A stretch of DNA of 64,000 nt from positions 310,001-374,000 of the forward strand of contig JAGNKX010000001.1 in the NCBI GenBank assembly GCA_017999915.1. The letters run 5' to 3'. The stretch's first letter is position 1. Each line of letters begins with the position of its first letter. Positions 9,467 through 34,782 of the stretch are shown in pieces. The notes under the pieces are model-generated. The model worked only from the letters and a program-made list of their open reading frames with translations, did no database searches and was not told the origin of the DNA. The stretch comes from Spirochaetota bacterium (GTDB lineage: Bacteria; Spirochaetota; UBA4802; UBA5550). The translations under genes were made by a program, and so were the position numbers.

Positions 9467-9614
9467 TTAGCAGTTTGCTAAAAAACAGCACACTGCTAAG
9501 CGATACAAGGGTGTATCGCCATTTTTCGAGGCTTTAGTCGAGAAAAATGTGAGGTTTTGAGAATTCACTTCTCAAAACCGACCCTGAAAAACTCCACGGA
9601 GGGAGTTTTTCAGG
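9467..9614. repeat. Run of consecutive stem-loops
   Basis: Between two minus-strand genes the DNA forms a chain of perfect or near-perfect inverted repeats: TTAGCAGT 9467-9474 with ACTGCTAA 9492-9499 (overlapping a smaller TTAGCA/TGCTAA hairpin); GCGATACA 9500-9507 with TGTATCGC 9512-9519; CATTTTTC 9520-9527 with GAAAAATG 9542-9549; GGTTTTGAGA 9553-9562 with TCTCAAAACC 9570-9579; CCTGAAAAACTCC 9583-9595 with GGAGTTTTTCAGG 9602-9614. The last, next to the stop of the 9621-11585 gene, could be a terminator. The others have no assigned role. The stems differ in sequence, so this is not a CRISPR array. Confidence 0.8.
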
Positions 9615-21620: not shown

Positions 21621-23435
21621 TCACGATTTTATGCGAAAATCACCCAGCCGTTTTATGAGGCCATCCCTTTCAATCCTGTTCAGAAGGGGAAGTATGTATT
21701 TGCGCGAAAGGCCCACTACGTCCTTGGCTTCAGGAACGGTGATCTTGTCCTTTGTTTTAAAAAGCGACATGATCGCGTTTTTCATTTTTTCATACACATC
21801 CTTGTGATACAGGATATTCCCGTCGAGGCTTACCAGGGAACCGAGCTTGATGAGCTCCCGCGCGTCCCTTTTCATCGATTCATCTTTTAACCGGTCAAGC
21901 TCCATGCCCTCGCCGCCGCTTGCAAGCACCGATTCAAGCAGCTTCATCTTGGCCTTCGACAGGATAACGCCGGTGCCGGGGAAAAAGCGTCCCTCTTTCT
22001 CCGCAACCTGTCCCCTGGAAACAAGTCCGGCTATGATCAGCCTGCAGATATCCGGATCGGTATCGGACGTGTCCGACAGCTCTTTCTGGTTAAGGCCCAC
22101 ATGGCTTTTCACCGCTTCGCTGACGCGCTTCAGCGCGTCGTCATGGGCCCCGGCTGTCAGGAGGTACGGGCCAAGCTTTTTCAAAACGCCCCGCTCCAGC
22201 AGGGAGGAGCAGGCCCTGTCTATTTCCTTCTTATTTTGGGACAAGGTTCCATCCAGGTCTTCCTGCGTTGCATGGCCGCGGACGGCGACAAAGAAGGAGA
22301 TATATTCCTCCAGGGTATGGGACGCGATGAGGCCCAGGTTTTCCTGAACCCGGTCCCGGTGCCGGCGCGGTTCATACCCGGGAAAGAGGACCCTGCCGCC
22401 CCCGATGATCCGGAATCCTCCAGGGCTGGTGAGAATCAACGGCTGGCCCGGGTAAGCGTACCATGGCTCGTCGAACTTGATGCGGCCGGGAAAGTCCAGC
22501 GCCGTTGTGGTGTCGCCGGAGAACAGGATGATCTTTGCCCTGACCGCCGCCGTGCCTATGAGCACCTCGATGCCGGTGTTGTTTTTTAGGACCTTCTTGC
22601 TACTCAGAAGCCGTATCTGCGCAACGATCTCGCCGGACTCCGTGAAGAATCCCGCGCGGTAGAGTATCTGCCCCCTTTTCAGGGAATCGGCGGGAATCCC
22701 CGAAAGGTTCAGCGCCGTCCGCTGCGAGGGGCTTCCCTCTGCGATTGTACTGTGATGACTTTCGATCCTCTTAATGCGCGCTTCCATGGCGCCGGGCTGG
22801 ATATGGACCAGGTCGTCGCTGTGAAGCATGCCGTTTCTCAGGGTCCCGGTCACGACGGTGCCGTAGCCCTTTGACGCGAATACCCGGTCTATGTACATGA
22901 AGGGCTTGTCGGCGTTGCGGGCCCGCGAAAGTTTCTTCAGATTGTCCGTGATGGCTTTCTTAAGCGTATTGATTCCCGCGCCGGTCTTCGAGGACACCCT
23001 GGCGATGTCAGCGTCCCGGTAGGGCGTGCCGTCAATCTTCCCCCGCACCTCCTCCTCGACCAGGTCTATCATCCCCTCTTCGACGCAGTCGATCTTGTTC
23101 AGCACTACGATGATCCGCTCGATGCCGAGGAGCTGGAGAACGCGGAAATGGTCTTCGGTCTGGGGCATCCATCCGTCATCCACGGCCACGACGAGAAGGC
23201 CCAGGTCGATGCCCCAGGCGCCGGCCACCATGTTCCGGATGAACCGCTCATGGCCGGGCACGTCGATGAAGCTCACGGCGCCGTAGCCGGGCAGGTCCGT
23301 GGATGCGAAGCCGATATCGATGGTCATCTCCCGGGCCTTTTCCTCGGGGAGGCGGTCGCAGTCTTCGCCGGTCAGGGCCAGGATAAGAGAGGTCTTCCCA
23401 TGGTCGATATGGCCGGAGGTGCCCACGACGAACAT
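21621..23435 (-). CDS. selB: Selenocysteine-specific elongation factor SelB
   Basis: A 604-residue SelB. The G domain has [14 protein letters not shown] (P-loop) at about residues 5-18, the switch-I region [18 protein letters not shown] and NKID, followed by the two EF-Tu-like beta domains and a C-terminal array of winged helices (residues about 380-604) that bind the SECIS mRNA hairpin. It delivers Sec-tRNA to UGA codons in a GTP-dependent way. The start overlaps the selA stop by one base (TAATG), so the pair is translationally coupled. tRNA-Sec is 65 bases upstream of selA. Confidence 0.95.
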
Positions 23436-24835
23436 TATTGCTTTCCTTTGTTGAGGGCTAAAAGTCTTCCCACCGCTGCGGCCGCGGCAGGGACATCATC
23501 GTCAAGGATTGTCATGAAATCCAGGGTAAAGCGGCCGTCTATGATGACACCGATGAGAGGGACTTCGGAATCGGCAAGGAAGGCGTAGATCTCATCAGCG
23601 CCGAGGCCGGGGATGTCCACCTGTATCCCCATGCTGTCCCTCTGGAAGCTGGGCATGGCTCCGCCTCCGATGGTGCTCTTCGTTCCGATACGTTTCAGGA
23701 ACTCCTTTTTTTCCGGACCGGCAATGAGCCTGAGGAAACGGCTGATGCGCCCGCCGATCGACGCGCTGTCCTGGACCATGATACGCCAGAGAGACAGAGT
23801 ATCGTGCTCTCCGTTGACATGCCTGATGAGGGTCTCCTGGAGGATATAATAGGTGATCTTGTCAACGCGGAGCATGCGCATGAGGGGGTTCCTGCGCAGG
23901 CGCCCCACCAGGTCCTTCCTTCCCACGATAATACCCGCCTGGCACCCGCCCAGGAGCTTGTCGCCGCTGAAGCAGACCAGGTCGGGGCCCTGGTCGATCT
24001 CCGACCGCACCGTCGCCTCGAAGGGCCGGGGAAGCCGTTGGTCCGTGGTAATGTTTCCGCTCCCCAGGTCGCGCACGAAGATGATTCCTTCTTTCTTGAG
24101 CTCACCCATGTCCCTGAGAGAGGGGCTTTCCGTGAAGCCCTGGATCGTGAAATTGGACCGGTGGCACGAGAAGATCATGGCCGTGTTTTCGGTAATGGCC
24201 CCGCGGTAATCTTCAACCGTGGTGATGTTCGTGGTCCCGGTCTCGACAAGGAGGGCGCCGCTCTGCTTCATGATGTCGGGCAAGCGGAAGCCCCCGCCGA
24301 TCTGCACGAGCTCGCCCCGGGAGACCACGACCTCCCTTCCGCGGGCGAATTCGCTCAGTATGAGAAACACGCTGGAGGCGTTGTTGTTGACGATGAGGGC
24401 GTCCTCGGCGCCGGCCAGCCCGGCGATCAGCTCCTCGGCAAAGCCGCCACGCTTTCCCCGCCGCCGCTCCGCCAGGTCATATTCCAGGTTGCAGTAGCCG
24501 GAACAATCCGCCGCGATCTTCTGCAGTATGTCGGCGCCAATGGGAGATCGGCCCAGGTTTGTATGGATAATCACGCCGGTGCCGTTGATGACGCGCTGAA
24601 GCTTACGCCTTTTTTTTGACTGGCACCGCGACACCACGGCCGGGACTATGGATTCCAGCGAAACCGCACCTCCCCTTCCAGCCTCTTTTCTGATGTCGGA
24701 AATGACCTCGCGGACCGCCTCGATCACCGCTGACCGGCCTATCTCGGAGAAAAATCGGCTCAATTCCTCAGCCTGGAGGATTTTCTCCACCTGGGGGATA
24801 TTCCTGAATATCTGGTTTATATCTTCCCTATCCAT
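23435..24835 (-). CDS. selA: L-seryl-tRNA(Sec) selenium transferase SelA
   Basis: A 466-residue PLP enzyme converting Ser-tRNA(Sec) to Sec-tRNA(Sec) with selenophosphate. An N-terminal helical tRNA-binding part ([19 protein letters not shown]) is followed by the fold-type-I domain: [15 protein letters not shown] with the PLP Lys, then GGCQAG where most SelA have GGPQAG. The ending [15 protein letters not shown] is typical. Length is normal. Together with selB and the tRNA this completes decoding; selD (selenophosphate synthetase) is not in the window. Confidence 0.95.
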
Positions 24836-24899
24836 AGTTATTCGCTGTCATTCGACCAGCCTGATCGTCACATCCGGTTAAGCCGCTGTTTAAAAAATG

Positions 24900-24989
24900 C
24901 GGAAGGGGCAGGAATCGAACCTGCCGCCGTGATAAATCACAGCCTACGGTTTTGAAGACCGCGGGGACCACCGGATCCCATCCTCTTCC
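24900..24989 (-). tRNA. selC: tRNA-Sec (UCA anticodon)
   Basis: A 90-base tRNA. Read on the minus strand it starts GGAAGAGG at 24989, has anticodon TCA (complement at 24953-24955) in loop CTTCAAA between GCGGT and ACCGT, a long variable arm (CTGTGAT...ATCACGG), T-arm GCAGG-TTCGATT-CCTGC, and a 3' acceptor strand CCCTTCC with discriminator G (24900). Long variable arm, UCA and G73 identify tRNA-Sec. The acceptor arm has one unpaired A, and the 3' end is followed by CA, not a full CCA, so CCA must be added. It is 64 bases upstream of selA. Confidence 0.95.
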
Positions 24990-25015
24990 ATAGTGGTGCC
25001 GATGGGGCTGTCTCA

Positions 25016-25125
25016 GAAGACCCCCCTAACCCCCCAGAGAGGGGGTTATTGACCTGGTTATGATCATGTAAGTCCCCCTCCGGGCGCCGCACTGAGCCTG
25101 TCGAAGTGGGATTCAGGGGGCTTCT
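25016..25125. repeat. GC-rich palindromic repeat
   Basis: AGAAGACCCCCCTAACCCCC (25016-25035) faces GGGATTCAGGGGGCTTCT (25108-25125) as an imperfect inverted repeat. Inside are the perfect hairpin TAACCCCC/GGGGGTTA (25027-25048) and the motif CACTGAGCCTGTCGAAGTG (25090-25108), a short sequence I have seen as a REP-like palindrome in many genomes. It lies between tRNA-Sec and the structured leader at 25191. Part of the 298-base gap 24990-25287. Confidence 0.7.
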
Positions 25126-25190
25126 AATTCAACCTCACCATTTATTGATTACATTTCACAGAATATCCATGTCAATAAATTAATTTGAAA

Positions 25191-25279
25191 GGCATATTTT
25201 TGCAACCGTAAAGACAGCTGGCCTGTCTTTACTTTTCGAATAGACGCAAAAAATGCCCTATGAAGATATAACGTCAGGG
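25191..25279 (+). promoter_or_regulatory. Structured mRNA leader, unclassified
   Basis: GGCATATTTTTGC (25191-25203) can pair with GCAAAAAATGCC (25246-25257) with one bulge, enclosing the perfect hairpin GTAAAGACAG/CTGTCTTTAC (25208-25232, loop CTGGC). A second, weaker pairing CCCT (25256-25259) with AGGG (25276-25279) would cover the ribosome site of the micro-ORF at 25288, and its left half overlaps the outer stem, so the two are partly exclusive. This is the layout of a translation switch or of a type I toxin leader. The local strings GCAACC and GACGCAAA recall c-di-GMP-I riboswitch cores, but the rest does not fit; class not assigned. Confidence 0.45.
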
Positions 25280-25287
25280 AGATTAAT

Positions 25288-25362
25288 ATGCTGGAATCAT
25301 TACTGGGGATACTTGTTGTATTGAGTGCACTGTACGGCATAAAAATACTCAAATCGCTCTAA
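25288..25362 (+). CDS. 24-residue hydrophobic peptide
   Basis: ATG 25288 follows AGGGAGATTAAT and encodes MLESLLGILVVLSALYGIKI plus LKSL before TAA. The peptide is a single membrane-spanning helix ending in Lys residues that would lie on one side of the membrane, similar in size to KdpF/CydX-type subunits or to small type I toxins. The preceding leader (25191-25279) can fold over its ribosome site. The next gene is a radical SAM protein 79 bases on. Expression is not proven; the good ribosome site and amino-acid composition argue for a real gene. Confidence 0.5.
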   Translation: MLESLLGILVVLSALYGIKILKSL

Positions 25363-25441
25363 ACCCCGTCAATACGCAGTACCGCGTGTTTATCACGCAA
25401 CAAACACACACATAATATCACCCTTATTATGGGAGAAGGAT

Positions 25442-27208
25442 ATGGAAAGGAAGATACTATTGGTCTACCCGGAGATACCTGCGACTTACTGGAGTTTTAA
25501 GTACGCGTTGCCCTTCATACGATACAAAACCCTCATGCCACCCCTGGGGCTCATAACCATTGCGGCGCTCCTGCCCGAAGACTATACGGTGCGTCTCATT
25601 GACATGAACTTCCAGAAGCTCACCGCCGGGGATATAGCCTCTGCAGACATGGTCTTTGTCTCCGCCATGATCGTCCAGAAGGAATCCTTTCACAGGGTGG
25701 TAGCCCTGTGCAATGAATACGGTACGCCCGTTGTGGCCGGGGGCCCCTATCCGACATCGAGCTACCGGCATATCAAGGGAGTGAGCCATTTTGTCCTGAA
25801 TGAAGGAGAAATAACGCTGCCCCGTTTTATCGACGACCTGGAGCGCGGACAGGCGCGGCATATCTACCAGGACGACGCCAAGCCGGATATAACCACGACG
25901 CCGCCTCCCCGCTTTGACCTGCTGGACATAGGCGCCTATGAATCAATGGCTCTCCAGTCCTCGCGGGGATGCCCCTTCAACTGCGAATTCTGCGATATCA
26001 TAGAGATGTTCGGCCGGGTCCCGCGGTACAAGACGCCGGATCAGTTCATCAATGAAATGAATGTCCTGTATAAAACAGGCTACCGCGGGTCCCTCTTCAT
26101 CGTCGATGACAATTTTATCGGTAATAAAAAGAAGGCCCGTGAACTGCTGGAGCATATTGCAGCCTGGCAGAAAGAGCGTAACTACCCGTACAGCCTCTTC
26201 ACGGAGGCGAGCATAAACCTTGCCCAGGATGACGGTCTCATCGACCTGATGGTCGACGCGGGACTCGACACGGTATTCATCGGCATTGAGACGCCCATTG
26301 CCGAAACCCTGTCCCTCACGCAGAAGCAGCAGAACACCAGGGCCGACATACTGGAAAGCGTCAGGACGATCCAGGCCAAGGGTATAGAAGTAATGGGAGG
26401 GTTCATCGTCGGCTTTGACAGCGACCCGGAGAATATCTTTGATCTCCAGATCGAATTCATCCAGAAGGCCGCCATACCCCTGGCGATGATCGGGACCATG
26501 GTCGCTCTTCCCAACACGCAGCTCTACCGCCGCCTCGAGCGGGAGGGCCGCATCGTCGGAGAGACCGACGGCAACAATACCCATTCCATGGAAATAAATT
26601 TTATTCCCCGGATGCCCCGCGAGACCCTTATAGAAGGATACAAGCGGGTCATCGCCGCAATCTACGAGCCGCGTAATTACTTCGAACGATGCAAGTCCCT
26701 TATTAAAAGATTACCCTCCCATGCCAACACCCATGGAGTCATAAGCAAAAAACATATCAAAGCCCTTTTCATGTCGCTATGGCGTCAGACCTTTTCCCGC
26801 TATGGCCGCGCCTACCTGGGACTGCTGGCGTCAGCCGTCATACACAATCCCCGGCAATTCCCGATGGCGGTCAGTCTTGCCGTGAAGGGATACCATTTTT
26901 TCAAGATGACCGACGACATCATGAAAGCCGAACAGATTGCCGCATACATGAAAACGTCCCTTGAACGCCTTGAAGAGGAATTTGAACTGAAATACAATGA
27001 TCCTGAGCGGACCCGTCCGGTAGCGGCCGGGCATATCACACGGCGTGCCATCAGGCAGATGCGTCGGATATACCGCGCATTGAACCCGGAGCTCAAGGTA
27101 TACCTGAAAGACACCTATCATGAATTCAAGATGAAATGCGAAACCACAGCCTATTACTGGTCACAGAAAGCCATGATGGATGATGAATCGTTGATGCATA
27201 CGAACTGA
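25442..27208 (+). CDS. B12-binding radical SAM protein (DUF4070 type)
   Basis: A 588-residue protein. Residues about 1-150 resemble a cobalamin-binding Rossmann domain (LLVYPEIPATYW at the start, then VAGGPYPTSSYRH) but without a clear DxHxxG. The radical SAM core begins at SRGCPFNCEFCD with Cys177, Cys181 and Cys184 holding the 4Fe-4S cluster; GFIVGFDSDP follows. The C-terminal 200 residues fit the DUF4070 extension found in HpnP/HpnR-like lipid-modifying enzymes. Such enzymes usually methylate or rearrange unactivated carbon. Good site GGAGAAGGAT precedes ATG. Substrate unknown; no hopanoid synthesis genes are adjacent. Confidence 0.88.
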   Translation: MERKILLVYPEIPATYWSFKYALPFIRYKTLMPPLGLITIAALLPEDYTVRLIDMNFQKLTAGDIASADMVFVSAMIVQKESFHRVVALCNEYGTPVVAGGPYPTSSYRHIKGVSHFVLNEGEITLPRFIDDLERGQARHIYQDDAKPDITTTPPPRFDLLDIGAYESMALQSSRGCPFNCEFCDIIEMFGRVPRYKTPDQFINEMNVLYKTGYRGSLFIVDDNFIGNKKKARELLEHIAAWQKERNYPYSLFTEASINLAQDDGLIDLMVDAGLDTVFIGIETPIAETLSLTQKQQNTRADILESVRTIQAKGIEVMGGFIVGFDSDPENIFDLQIEFIQKAAIPLAMIGTMVALPNTQLYRRLEREGRIVGETDGNNTHSMEINFIPRMPRETLIEGYKRVIAAIYEPRNYFERCKSLIKRLPSHANTHGVISKKHIKALFMSLWRQTFSRYGRAYLGLLASAVIHNPRQFPMAVSLAVKGYHFFKMTDDIMKAEQIAAYMKTSLERLEEEFELKYNDPERTRPVAAGHITRRAIRQMRRIYRALNPELKVYLKDTYHEFKMKCETTAYYWSQKAMMDDESLMHTN

Positions 27209-29716: not shown

Positions 29717-32700
29717 TTAATTACTCTGGAACCCGAGATTCTTAATGATCACATTGATATCAATCCTCGGATCATTCATGTCCGCCATTGCGTCAAGCAT
29801 AAGGACCAGGTCGTCCCAGAGCGGAGAATTGGGGTCAGAGACAATGCTCCACGAAAGGAACCGGTCTAAATCCTCTACAACGGCCTGCGCAGAGTACGGC
29901 GTGGTCATACCCTCGATAATGGCATGGAGGATGCTGTTGTCATTCTTGAGCAGGTAATCAACGTTTTTCAGCATCCGGTCATATTTGACACCGGAACCGT
30001 CGCTGGTCTTCATGGTTTCATGCACTTGAGGCAAATACGTGAGAACATCAACCAGCTGGTCGTAGGAATCGGTCTTGCCGGGCCCATGATCGTAACCATG
30101 GTATTGCCACGCGCCGCCCGGATATACCTGGTTGTACCTGGCGAAAAGCTTCCCAGCCGTGTATAAAAGGCCATGGACCTGGTCTTCCGTAAGCTGCTGC
30201 GCCAATACGGCGTTAGTTACGTTGACCAGATTCTGGGTGATATTCCTGGAGCCTCCCACAAAGCTCTTCAGCATATCCACGGTATCCTCGAAGCTTGACC
30301 AGTCGGCGCCGCTCGCGCGATACTCGCCCTCGTATCCAAGGAAATCCTCCAGGTCAAGGTCCTCATTTCTCTTACTGAACATCCATTCATATCTCGAGAA
30401 ATCCAGTGTAGTAAAGTAACCGTTCGTAATGGCCTCGCTCTTGTTGAACTTGGCCGCAGTCATGACCTGTTCCAGACCGAGGGCGATGTTTGCCCGGGGT
30501 TCCGCATAGGTATCGCTACCAAGGAGCTGCAGCAGGCCCAGGAGCCTTGTGACCATGCCACCGCCGTCGGCCATCATGGGGAGTACGCCGTCATAGCCGC
30601 TTGCGCTGTTGCCGGTAAGAACACTTATAGGAGTACGCAAAATGTCGCGTGGTAGATAATTATTGATGCTACTAGAATAAGGATTTACATCACCATTAGT
30701 ATCTACAGCAACATTAGGATTAAAATATTGATAATCGTCACCGGTTTCATCCTTAACCCGTTGCACCCAACGATTTGATGGGGAATCGAATCGACGGAAC
30801 ATCGGTTTACCGAGCGGCATGAGAACACCTTCAAGCAAATCCGCCATCGGATACTTGTGAGGAGATGCTGGTGAATAATTGTAGTTATACCCTGATGCTG
30901 ACTTATTATACAAAGTTCCATCATGAAGAACTCCGGTAAGTGCTGCCAGAACAGGAGCCAGTTTATTTCTATTTGCCCAGGCTGTAGTCCATGTTGAGGT
31001 ACGATTATCAGAAAGGATATCAACTGCATTTTCTGTCAAAAAAGCCATGCGGGCGACCGGCTCGATATTTCTCCCAACTGCGTCAGGAAGTACATAACCG
31101 CCACCCAAAACTTTATTGAACAAGAATTCCGGATTGATCTTTATCTCTAGAGAACCTATATCCAATAAAACAATTTCACGGCAAAACACAGTAATTCGTC
31201 CATCACCGGGTCTATCGGAATCACCATAATCAGGTGAATTTTTATAATTTGAATTATATGCAGTAGCCGGAATACCTTCACTTCCGAGTTTGACCCAGCG
31301 TCCATTTGCTGTCCCTTTTTTAGCATTGGCAAGGCCTACAGCACCATTGGCTTCAATCAAGATAAATGCTCCGGCAGATTGTGTTCCCAAAACATCAATA
31401 TACATGGGGATAATAAACACCATTTTTTTCTCATAAAGAAACCACTGTATGTTTCTATAAATGGCTTCTTCTTGAGTGGCACATTCTCTTGTAGAAATGC
31501 CAGAACCTGCGGATGTTTCCTGTTTGTGTGATATTCTTTCATATAATTTAAACTGTTTAGCTTCAACTGTTATTTCAGAGGATTTTAAAGATTTTAATTT
31601 ATATTTTGCTGCATCGGTTGTCCCTTCAACATAATCAGATCCTGCTTCATTCATTGGAGGCATATTATATCGAGCATATGCTATACCCCATATTAATTCA
31701 TACATATCAATTAAATAGTAATCAGATTTCACTATATCCTGATAGCGGTTCGCCCTCTGGGCATTGGCATCATCAGGGTCGGCAATGTCGTCACCGATCC
31801 CTGTTTGGTTAGAATTCGGATAAAAATATTCCCATGTAGTCGGGCTTGATGAAGGTTTATACACATAGGCATAGACCTCGCCATTTGGCTTATAGTATAT
31901 ATTCACTGTCTTTCTGCCGTTGACAGGCATGGTATAGCTTGTTGTTGCAGGATGGGTTGAATCATTGGTATAGGTCGTTGAGTAGTATGGCCCCTGTCCG
32001 TCCCAGGCGACCCGGGCTACCCAGCCCATGAGGAATTGTGACGTGTTAAGCACTCCCTTACCATCAGCCACCTTGGGCCAGTAAGTGCGGTAGTCATTTT
32101 TATAATTAGTAGAAGCAAGAGTCGCAGCATTTGTTTCAGTTTCAGAATCGTCAACTTCTACGGCAGTTTCCCCTCCATTGGGAATCCCCGCATCGCCGGC
32201 ACAGTTGGAAGGCAACAGCAGCATGGTGGGATAATCATATCCCAGATAAAATTTATGGGAATCTCGCTGAGTATAGCTAAAAGGCAAATAACTGCGGGAA
32301 ATATGGTTGCCCTGGGTATTACGTTTTGCAAGGGCAAGGGCATATGAATCCATTAAACCACAACCGGGTATAACACTACCTGAAAGTGCTGACAAAGAAT
32401 CCTTGGATGTTAATGAAAACATACTATCATTAATGGTTATTATTCCTTTCGTAGCGATTCCATGACCATAGTTAAAATTAGTATAATTACCTTCTTCAGA
32501 GGCTGATCCAACTCGGGCAAGGAACCCAAAATTATAAGCCGCACCGACCGTGTATACCAGGTGGTCCAAATACGACATCTGCGACCAGGATGAATCGGAA
32601 CTCCTGCTCTTCATCCTCCCATTGTACTGCATCGTTCTCTTAAGGGTAGGCTCCAGCGCATTGGCGCTGTTGGAATAATCGATTCCAGCGGCTTTTAATT

Positions 32701-34066
32701 TTCCCAGACCCACCATTAACGATTCAATGGGCGACTGTTTGTCTGCATTGATTATCGAATAATCAGCGCCTCCGGTGCCGTCATTGCGGATAAATAGCTT
32801 CACCAGGGTGGGTAGCATGTCGCGAAGGGTTTCCTTAAATGACGCGTTCACATATCCGGTGGCAACACTAGAATTATGATAATCCGTGCTGCTTTCATAG
32901 GTGCTTGTGCCGATCTCATCCGCGGCAAAATAATTAGACATGTTCACGATGGCGTTCTCGATTTTCGTGGTCGCATTGGCGTCCGCATTCAGCAGGGCCG
33001 GCAGGTCTTCAAGGATCATGGCATCTATGGTGGCCCTCACCGTCTCATCGCTGGCCGCTATGGTATTGAGTCCGTATAGAAGCTTGATGACCCCCTTGAC
33101 CGCGTTGCCCAGGTCGGTGTTGACCGTATAGGGGGCGCTGTTCGCTGCGTCGCGATTGGTCGCAAGCGCATTGGCGCCGTTCACCCACATCGGATAGTCG
33201 CAGCTCATGGTCACCTTGCCGGCCAGTTTGGCCAGCTTGGTGATATCATACTCGATTTTGACCGACCGGGTCCGGTTGTTCCAGTTGGTGCCATTGTCGG
33301 TGAGGCACCGATCGCTCGAGGTCAGCTCCAGGGAATTGCCTGACTGATTGTCCGCGTCATAGAGGGTGACTTTGATGCCAATGGGCACCGAAATTGACGA
33401 TATAGCCCCGGCATGGGCGCCGAGGGCCGATGTGGAATAAGACCCCGCTGGAAGATCGATGTAAAGAGACGAGCTTGTTTCGTCATACATGTTGTTATCA
33501 TAGAACCGCACCTTCATCATGTTCCCCATGTCGGATTCTATTTCCTGTGGGGTCTTTTCAGTGACGAGATAATCCACCACCTGTTCAGCTATGTCAAGAA
33601 CGTCACCGCCCAGGTTGGTGTTGGTCACTACCATGTCAAGGGCCGCGTAAAACTGGGCGAGCCGGTCGATGGAGCCGTTGGTTGTGTCATAATACCCGCC
33701 GTCACTGGTGGAGGGATCGTCGTAATGATAAACATTGGCCGTGTCCATCATTATCTTCAGCACACCGTGGAGCTCTTTGATCATGGGAACCAGGAACGGT
33801 GCCTCCACAAGGCCCACCGCGTCCCTGAGAAAAAGCGGCGTATTATAGCCGTTGATCATCATGTCTCCGAGGCCGTCGTTCAGCTTCTGGGAATCAAGGC
33901 TTTCAACGAGGCTGTTCAGGGCGGGAAAACCCTCAAAGAGCCTGAGGAGGCTGTATTCAGGTTCCTGATCATTTCCCTGGAATCCAGCCATCTGGCCTTT
34001 GGAACAGCCGGTATATATCGACATGGTAAAAAGCGCGCTAATTAAAACAAAAAGAATTTTTTTCAT
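29717..34066 (-). CDS. Giant surface lipoprotein (1449 residues)
   Basis: Starts at ATG 34066 after GGGAGGATCTGG (a seven-residue longer frame is less likely). The signal peptide ends in lipobox IYTGC. The long mature part is rich in Asn, Asp, Ser, Thr and Tyr, with predicted helical stretches near both ends and many beta/loop segments in the middle; cysteines are few. No repeat unit or known domain was recognised; many similar large lipoproteins are seen in spirochaetes. The coding sequence for about residues 512-1142 (30640-32530) is clearly more AT-rich than both flanks. No enzyme motif. Likely surface-exposed; function unknown. Confidence 0.75.
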   Translation of the reverse strand: MKKILFVLISALFTMSIYTGCSKGQMAGFQGNDQEPEYSLLRLFEGFPALNSLVESLDSQKLNDGLGDMMINGYNTPLFLRDAVGLVEAPFLVPMIKELHGVLKIMMDTANVYHYDDPSTSDGGYYDTTNGSIDRLAQFYAALDMVVTNTNLGGDVLDIAEQVVDYLVTEKTPQEIESDMGNMMKVRFYDNNMYDETSSSLYIDLPAGSYSTSALGAHAGAISSISVPIGIKVTLYDADNQSGNSLELTSSDRCLTDNGTNWNNRTRSVKIEYDITKLAKLAGKVTMSCDYPMWVNGANALATNRDAANSAPYTVNTDLGNAVKGVIKLLYGLNTIAASDETVRATIDAMILEDLPALLNADANATTKIENAIVNMSNYFAADEIGTSTYESSTDYHNSSVATGYVNASFKETLRDMLPTLVKLFIRNDGTGGADYSIINADKQSPIESLMVGLGKLKAAGIDYSNSANALEPTLKRTMQYNGRMKSRSSDSSWSQMSYLDHLVYTVGAAYNFGFLARVGSASEEGNYTNFNYGHGIATKGIITINDSMFSLTSKDSLSALSGSVIPGCGLMDSYALALAKRNTQGNHISRSYLPFSYTQRDSHKFYLGYDYPTMLLLPSNCAGDAGIPNGGETAVEVDDSETETNAATLASTNYKNDYRTYWPKVADGKGVLNTSQFLMGWVARVAWDGQGPYYSTTYTNDSTHPATTSYTMPVNGRKTVNIYYKPNGEVYAYVYKPSSSPTTWEYFYPNSNQTGIGDDIADPDDANAQRANRYQDIVKSDYYLIDMYELIWGIAYARYNMPPMNEAGSDYVEGTTDAAKYKLKSLKSSEITVEAKQFKLYERISHKQETSAGSGISTRECATQEEAIYRNIQWFLYEKKMVFIIPMYIDVLGTQSAGAFILIEANGAVGLANAKKGTANGRWVKLGSEGIPATAYNSNYKNSPDYGDSDRPGDGRITVFCREIVLLDIGSLEIKINPEFLFNKVLGGGYVLPDAVGRNIEPVARMAFLTENAVDILSDNRTSTWTTAWANRNKLAPVLAALTGVLHDGTLYNKSASGYNYNYSPASPHKYPMADLLEGVLMPLGKPMFRRFDSPSNRWVQRVKDETGDDYQYFNPNVAVDTNGDVNPYSSSINNYLPRDILRTPISVLTGNSASGYDGVLPMMADGGGMVTRLLGLLQLLGSDTYAEPRANIALGLEQVMTAAKFNKSEAITNGYFTTLDFSRYEWMFSKRNEDLDLEDFLGYEGEYRASGADWSSFEDTVDMLKSFVGGSRNITQNLVNVTNAVLAQQLTEDQVHGLLYTAGKLFARYNQVYPGGAWQYHGYDHGPGKTDSYDQLVDVLTYLPQVHETMKTSDGSGVKYDRMLKNVDYLLKNDNSILHAIIEGMTTPYSAQAVVEDLDRFLSWSIVSDPNSPLWDDLVLMLDAMADMNDPRIDINVIIKNLGFQSN

Positions 34067-34782
34067 ATCCAGATCCTCCCAACTCAATCATTCAAGCATC
34101 TATTTCTGTATAAAATAAAAACCGTCCGGCCGGTATTTATATATTGATTTGTGAACAAATACATTCTTTAAAATTCTAGACTAATTTTTGGTAATTTTCA
34201 TGAATTATGGCTTTTTAGAAATGCACCCAACAAGTTTTTTCACTTAATATATTTATACTTTACCGCAATTGTAATAGTGAAAGATTAATTTTTTCCTCTC
34301 ACCATAAAGCGCGAAAAATACATGCATGTGTTTTGAAAATAAGGTAATGGTTCATTTCTGTCAACTGAAAAAACTGAAGATTCAGTTTTTAGAATGTATT
34401 AAGGAATAAAAATACAATGCTATTTTGTAATGTATACTGTATTTTAAAAATATCTGAACCTATATTACCGCCATTGGCAACCAATCTAATATTGACTATT
34501 TTTTATTTATTGTCCAATCAATAATTTGGTTGCAAATCAACGGCAAAATGGCTTATTAAAAAAAATTTTATGCGTCAGTATATGCAGAATTACGATCCGA
34601 AGATTTCCTTTCTATAGGAATCATCGGTATTGCCATATCATCTATTTGAAAAAAACGTAATCATGCTTTCATTGTAACTATTGTTACTAATTGAACGGTA
34701 TTAATACTTGACGCGAATGCTGTTTGTCAATTATCAACCCATTGTCATTTTCCCTGATCCGAACCGCTGTTAACCAGGGACA
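34067..34782. other. 716-base AT-rich gene-free stretch
   Basis: No reading frame of more than about 60 residues fits here. It contains the perfect hairpin AAAAACTGAA-GA-TTCAGTTTTT (34369-34390) and the long-distance inverted repeat GCAACCAA (34477-34484) with TTGGTTGC (34526-34533). Low GC and these palindromes suggest a promoter/regulatory zone or an old insertion; nothing further is supported. Confidence 0.6.

Follow-up and report, generated by a model that had tools for sequence, protein, structure and literature searches.

A probable ECF-sigma-type promoter and an unannotated 24-residue membrane peptide at the head of a sigma/anti-sigma operon in Spirochaetota

Positions 25196-25231 of the 64,000-nucleotide stretch of Spirochaetota DNA analysed here (the window) are, on the evidence of sequence comparison, a promoter of the ECF sigma type with -35 and -10 boxes at fixed spacing. 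We consider it very probable that an ECF sigma operon is autoregulated from this promoter, and that the mRNA made from it is led by a cistron for a 24-residue peptide. To the right of the leader the plus strand carries, in order, the peptide, a B12-binding/radical-SAM protein, a DUF6249 membrane protein, the ECF sigma factor and its anti-sigma factor (Table 1). The system is an ECF operon of a known kind carrying a new small-protein member. Judging by the open-licence papers searched, no description seems to exist of the peptide, of the precise promoter or of this operon composition; searches for DUF6249 and for the exact -35 sequence gave nothing relevant. The related loci used for comparison come from MAGs of uncultured Spirochaetota.

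Table 1. Features of the locus, in window positions.
Feature	Position	Strand	Basis or remark
selB-like gene	21621-23435	minus	name from sequence
selA-like gene	23435-24835	minus	name from sequence
tRNA-Sec	24901-24989	minus	left of leader
Outer-stem 5' strand GGCATATTTTTGC	25191-25203	+	in window sequence
-35 region, TTTTTTGCAACC-type (window ATTTTTGCAACC)	25196..25207	+	conserved before orthologous operons order-wide
Inner perfect hairpin GTAAAGACAG-CTGGC-CTGTCTTTAC	25208-25232	+	in window sequence
Promoter spacer, 14 nt	25208..25221	+	sequence differs in every relative, length fixed
-10 element CCTGTCTTTA	25222..25231	+	conserved among relatives
Predicted transcription start	25237..25238	+	inferred from ECF promoter geometry
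Outer-stem 3' strand GCAAAAAATGCC	25246-25257	+	in window sequence
CCCT	25256-25259	+	in window sequence
Shine-Dalgarno AGGGAG of peptide	25276..25281	+	SD-like purine run before ATG in all five orthologues
24-aa single-transmembrane peptide MLESLLGILVVLSALYGIKILKSL	25288..25362	+	collinear ORF, synonymous-biased substitutions
B12-binding/radical-SAM/DUF4070 protein, 588 aa	25442..27208	+	Pfam; orthologues
DUF6249 small membrane protein, 114 aa	27315..27659	+	Pfam PF19762, E 2.8e-8
ECF sigma factor, 186 aa	27649..28209	+	Pfam sigma-70 r2/r4; RpoE, SigW structure matches
Membrane anti-sigma, Hx3Cx2C zinc motif and two TM helices	28199..28660	+	motif, profile, model

The selA- and selB-like genes and tRNA-Sec (21621-24989) are divergent from the ECF operon and adjoin it. 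A tRNA-Sec-like sequence also lies upstream of the operon in G002 (L167), G007 (L027) and G008 (L032), which makes the neighbourhood partly syntenic. Between tRNA-Sec and the leader, positions 25005-25130 hold a sequence of G/C runs with inverted segments (ccccctaaccccccagagaggggg..., gcactgagcctgtcgaagtg) that resembles an intergenic repeat element. Beyond the operon, a 1456-aa ORF on the minus strand (29717-34087) has a lipoprotein-like start (...YTGCSKGQ...).

We looked for the leader in 98 relatives and gathered the regions upstream of radical-SAM orthologues. Across many genera these regions share the arrangement TTTTTTGCAACC-N14-CCTGTCTTTA, rarely with N13, and the TTTTTTGCAACC-N14(13)-CCTGTC portion sits about 60-300 nt before the start codon. 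Alignment of the five peptide-bearing genomes of the genus leaves the blocks TTTTTGCAACC and CCTGTC invariant, and the spacer between them varies freely. In a weight-matrix scan, 34 of the 48 operon sets scored above the 99% control for the motif (G043 being doubtful among these), and a separate site search added G041 and G042. The motif precedes the radical-SAM gene where this gene leads the operon, and the DUF6249-ECF genes where it does not (G012, G016, G036, G038, G039 and G006); a linked radical-SAM gene was not found in genomes such as G012, G016, G036, G038 and G039. The persistence of the promoter in front of DUF6249, sigma and anti-sigma when the radical-SAM gene is unlinked points to autoregulation. 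Of the 45 genomes of the order, 42 carry one or more sites with no more than three mismatches. All 11 exact sites lie before radical-SAM-type genes, the DUF4070 one in ten cases. Roughly one in four operons of the order has only a degenerate motif, or none, within 350 nt.

The hallmarks of ECF systems are AAC at -35, CGT at -10, a co-transcribed anti-sigma factor and positive autoregulation (PMC8103513). The -35 region here shares the AAC core of ECF promoters (PMC8103513), whereas the -10 element reads CTGTC in place of the canonical CGT. Boxes with AAC and GTC at fixed spacing before an operon encoding an ECF factor and its anti-sigma factor form the hallmark pattern of autoregulated ECF promoters (PMC8103513), and the conserved promoter of this locus does stand before the sigma factor's own operon. 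The sigma protein comprises sigma-70 regions 2 and 4 only (PF04542, PF08281), matches the structures of RpoE and SigW, and found a counterpart in each of the 45 genomes searched. The adjacent anti-sigma carries, within its N-terminal helical domain, the Hx3Cx2C motif by which class I anti-sigma factors that bind zinc are generally recognised (PMC7406223). The motif is conserved in nearly all orthologues, and its residues (H26-x3-C30-x2-C33) are invariant in the 18 that were aligned. Two membrane helices are predicted, and the structural model likewise places two long helices after the N-terminal helical domain. The anti-sigma gave no above-cutoff hit against Pfam and NCBIfam alone; profile comparison related it to RsiW at E 3e-4 and gave a weak match to ChrR. 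The DUF6249 gene is single-copy across the order's genomes. Selenocysteine in the DUF6249 proteins of G025 and G041, where a TGA had been flagged, was rejected, the TGA being an ordinary stop.

Conservation of the promoter, its spacing and its linkage to the sigma gene are direct results of the comparison; recognition of this promoter by this sigma factor, the start site and the co-transcription of the operon are what we infer from them. Several further ECF factors are encoded in these genomes, and one of them could use the motif as well. In the mechanism we propose, a cell-envelope signal would release the sigma factor from the membrane-bound zinc-motif anti-sigma, and the holoenzyme would recognise TTTTTGCAACC-N14-CCTGTCTTTA and initiate near 25237, a position obtained by setting the C of GTC (25227) as -10 and counting about 10 nt further. 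The first cistron of the resulting mRNA would supply the single-helix membrane protein, and the later cistrons the B12/radical-SAM enzyme, the DUF6249 membrane protein and then the sigma and anti-sigma factors themselves.

The sequence-only reading of the leader had pointed to a 24-residue single-helix peptide of a size that normally escapes annotation, and this part is borne out: the peptide is encoded, and it recurs at the same place in related genomes. A collinear 24-aa ORF is present in five of the six genomes of the genus (G000, G001, G003, G004 and G005), always 50-55 nt past the 40-nt promoter block. It is missing from G002 of the same genus and from most other genera, which makes it an accessory first cistron. 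The ORF is short, has one hydrophobic segment and is under amino-acid selection. Across the species of the genus, 17 of the 24 positions are invariant, and the 31 variable nucleotide columns fall 22, 8 and 1 at codon positions 3, 1 and 2. Pairs of orthologues differ by 2-4 amino acids, against 8-13 under random placement of the mutations (P <=5e-5 per pair). Comparison thus establishes the coding nature of the peptide, an unannotated, predicted membrane protein.

Among 46 genomes of the order, the peptide HMM hits solely this locus in the five genus members (E ~1e-14). In 296 genomes from across the phylum, the profile is convincing only in this genus and in G016, the latter by construction of the profile; none was found in plasmids. 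G016 and G012, which belong to other genera of the same family, encode Shine-Dalgarno-led single-helix peptides of 27-28 aa as their first cistrons (MTFIIIALVLLISGIFGFQLMEALQNY and MIIAAIILASYLICCFTAFRIIKGLRQP, respectively), positional analogues of the genus peptide. The likeness lies mainly in position and pattern, and the sequences are too short for a firm claim of homology. No peptide of the genus, G016 or G012 has a match at a meaningful E-value in Pfam, NCBIfam or PHROG. Of 34 leaders, 7 contain a small single-TM ORF led by a Shine-Dalgarno sequence, and these 7 come from three genera; among shuffled leaders the count is 13 of 6800. A Ser-x3-Gly spacing, which would be compatible with helix packing, is kept in the genus peptides and in G016. 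The peptide may act as a membrane-stress effector or as a helix-packing partner of another membrane protein of the operon. A wider proposal, which we put forward tentatively and hold to be rather unlikely, is that the 24-28 aa peptides form a new class of small membrane proteins of ECF operons that act on the pathway itself. With the SxxxG face packed against the anti-sigma or DUF6249, for example, they might adjust or end the same envelope response by which they are induced.

The leader had also been read as a riboswitch-like cis-regulatory RNA whose outer stem masks the Shine-Dalgarno sequence of the peptide. The nested stems, the complementarity of CCCT to AGGG and the 24-codon ORF are all present in the sequence at their places in Table 1, and fold prediction allows CCCT to pair with AGGG. 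The 106-nt leader of the window, taken alone, folds better than its shuffles (z -2.70, 2/200), although leader and ORF together reach a z of only -1.49. Shuffles of the window contain 0-1 perfect hairpins of at least 10 bp per 64 kb and the window itself has them at about eight distinct places, so chance does not trivially account for the inverted repeat in this one genome. The others lie at 9553, 9585, 12069, 14617, 16075, 21298 and 29663, and some of them are probably terminators. Relatives, however, do not keep the structure. Homologous leader-peptide pairs were found, in five members of the genus, but their stems do not covary: counted over the five leaders of the genus, the 22 proposed pairs are formed in 57.5% of cells, where shuffles give 54.6% and 84 of 500 shuffles score as high. 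No measure of stem conservation or covariation rose above its shuffles, which indicates that the stems are not maintained. The CCCT/AGGG pairing is absent in the window's relatives in the genus leader alignment, and the masking proposed for it goes with it. The conserved bases are those of the promoter, with fixed spacing around a freely varying spacer. The -35 region overlaps the 5' strand of the outer stem, the spacer coincides with the 5' arm and loop of the inner hairpin, and the -10 element coincides with its 3' arm. With a start near 25237, transcripts from this promoter would lack the outer-stem 5' strand and all of the inner hairpin, which both lie upstream, and with them most of the proposed structure. 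The RNA from 25238 onward shows no unusual fold (z 0.16). Rfam scans of the leader at gathering and permissive thresholds returned no leader family; the hits to RF_site6, Plastid-psbl-rps4 and Diantho were rejected as far below cutoff. No copy of the leader was found in its own genome beyond this locus. We regard the regulatory RNA as largely refuted and very unlikely. The inverted repeat over the -10 region, specific to the window, could be due to chance or could be a species-specific operator. More generally, what looks like a striking RNA leader can turn out to be promoter DNA, and fixed spacing with a free spacer tells the two apart.

Two further explanations concern the peptide. As a short hydrophobic single helix with a good Shine-Dalgarno sequence, it would suit the toxin of a type I toxin-antitoxin pair with an antisense RNA, as had also been suggested from the sequence. 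Against this stand its single copy per genome and operonic position, the absence of repeats, and the 17 of 24 invariant positions with a synonymous bias that marks the frame as under purifying selection. Wherever the peptide is carried it follows the ECF promoter, and a search of both strands of 24800-25600 for sigma-70-like promoters and for terminators turned up no candidate of either kind. We judge a type I toxin extremely improbable. A leader peptide, whose translation rather than product would control the radical-SAM gene by attenuation or coupling, draws on the first-cistron position and on the distance of 79-97 nt to the next start codon. This, too, is improbable, since amino-acid conservation and a transmembrane pattern extend over the whole length with no regulatory codon run, no terminator hairpin lies between the peptide and the radical-SAM gene, the analogues in G016 and G012 precede DUF6249 instead, and most radical-SAM operons lack the peptide. 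The autoregulated ECF promoter with a membrane peptide as its first cistron is the reading we carry forward.

This promoter may serve further genes. The window's own genome has only one other site (two mismatches), which lies before an acyltransferase gene (PF01553) with a membrane protein gene behind it (G000 contig C9, L129, minus strand). The same acyltransferase arrangement is found in G003 (C94, L139), with a spacer near-identical to that of L129, and the acyltransferase locus of the two species is likely a second member of the ECF regulon. Sites with 1-3 mismatches also lie before acyltransferases, HlyIII-like proteins and further B12/radical-SAM proteins. Such targets suggest an envelope or lipid regulon; each is backed by a single site and serves as a lead only. 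A second conserved radical-SAM-like family (start ...LLLTAVFGPYGVKNKYAE...) was observed behind the same motif at L123, L124, L126, L127 and L133, in several genera. Comparison alone yields the promoter and a candidate regulon (radical-SAM/B12 proteins, acyltransferases, HlyIII-like proteins) of an order-wide spirochaete ECF system, and adds a verifiable 24-aa membrane protein overlooked by annotation-scale gene finding.

A resemblance of the leader to the cyclic-di-GMP-I riboswitch (GEMM-I) had been noticed, and it is confined to the short strings GCAACC/GACGCAAA; these are the promoter -35 and unconserved UTR, and the leader has no Rfam or covariance-model match. Small membrane proteins such as KdpF, CydX, MgtS and AcrZ have about 24-50 aa and one hydrophobic helix, and the gene for the partner protein usually lies close by or belongs to the same regulon. 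The peptide is of this type in size and in its single helix, and differs in having no family match in Pfam, NCBIfam or PHROG. The closest known systems are operons of ECF sigma and class I anti-sigma factors, such as SigW-RsiW of Bacillus subtilis and RpoE-ChrR of Rhodobacter. In comparison with these, the -35 region here is TTTTTTGCAACC and the -10 element CCTGTCTTTA, and the operon also includes a B12/radical-SAM enzyme and a DUF6249 protein, joined in some genera by a membrane peptide of 24-28 aa as the first cistron.
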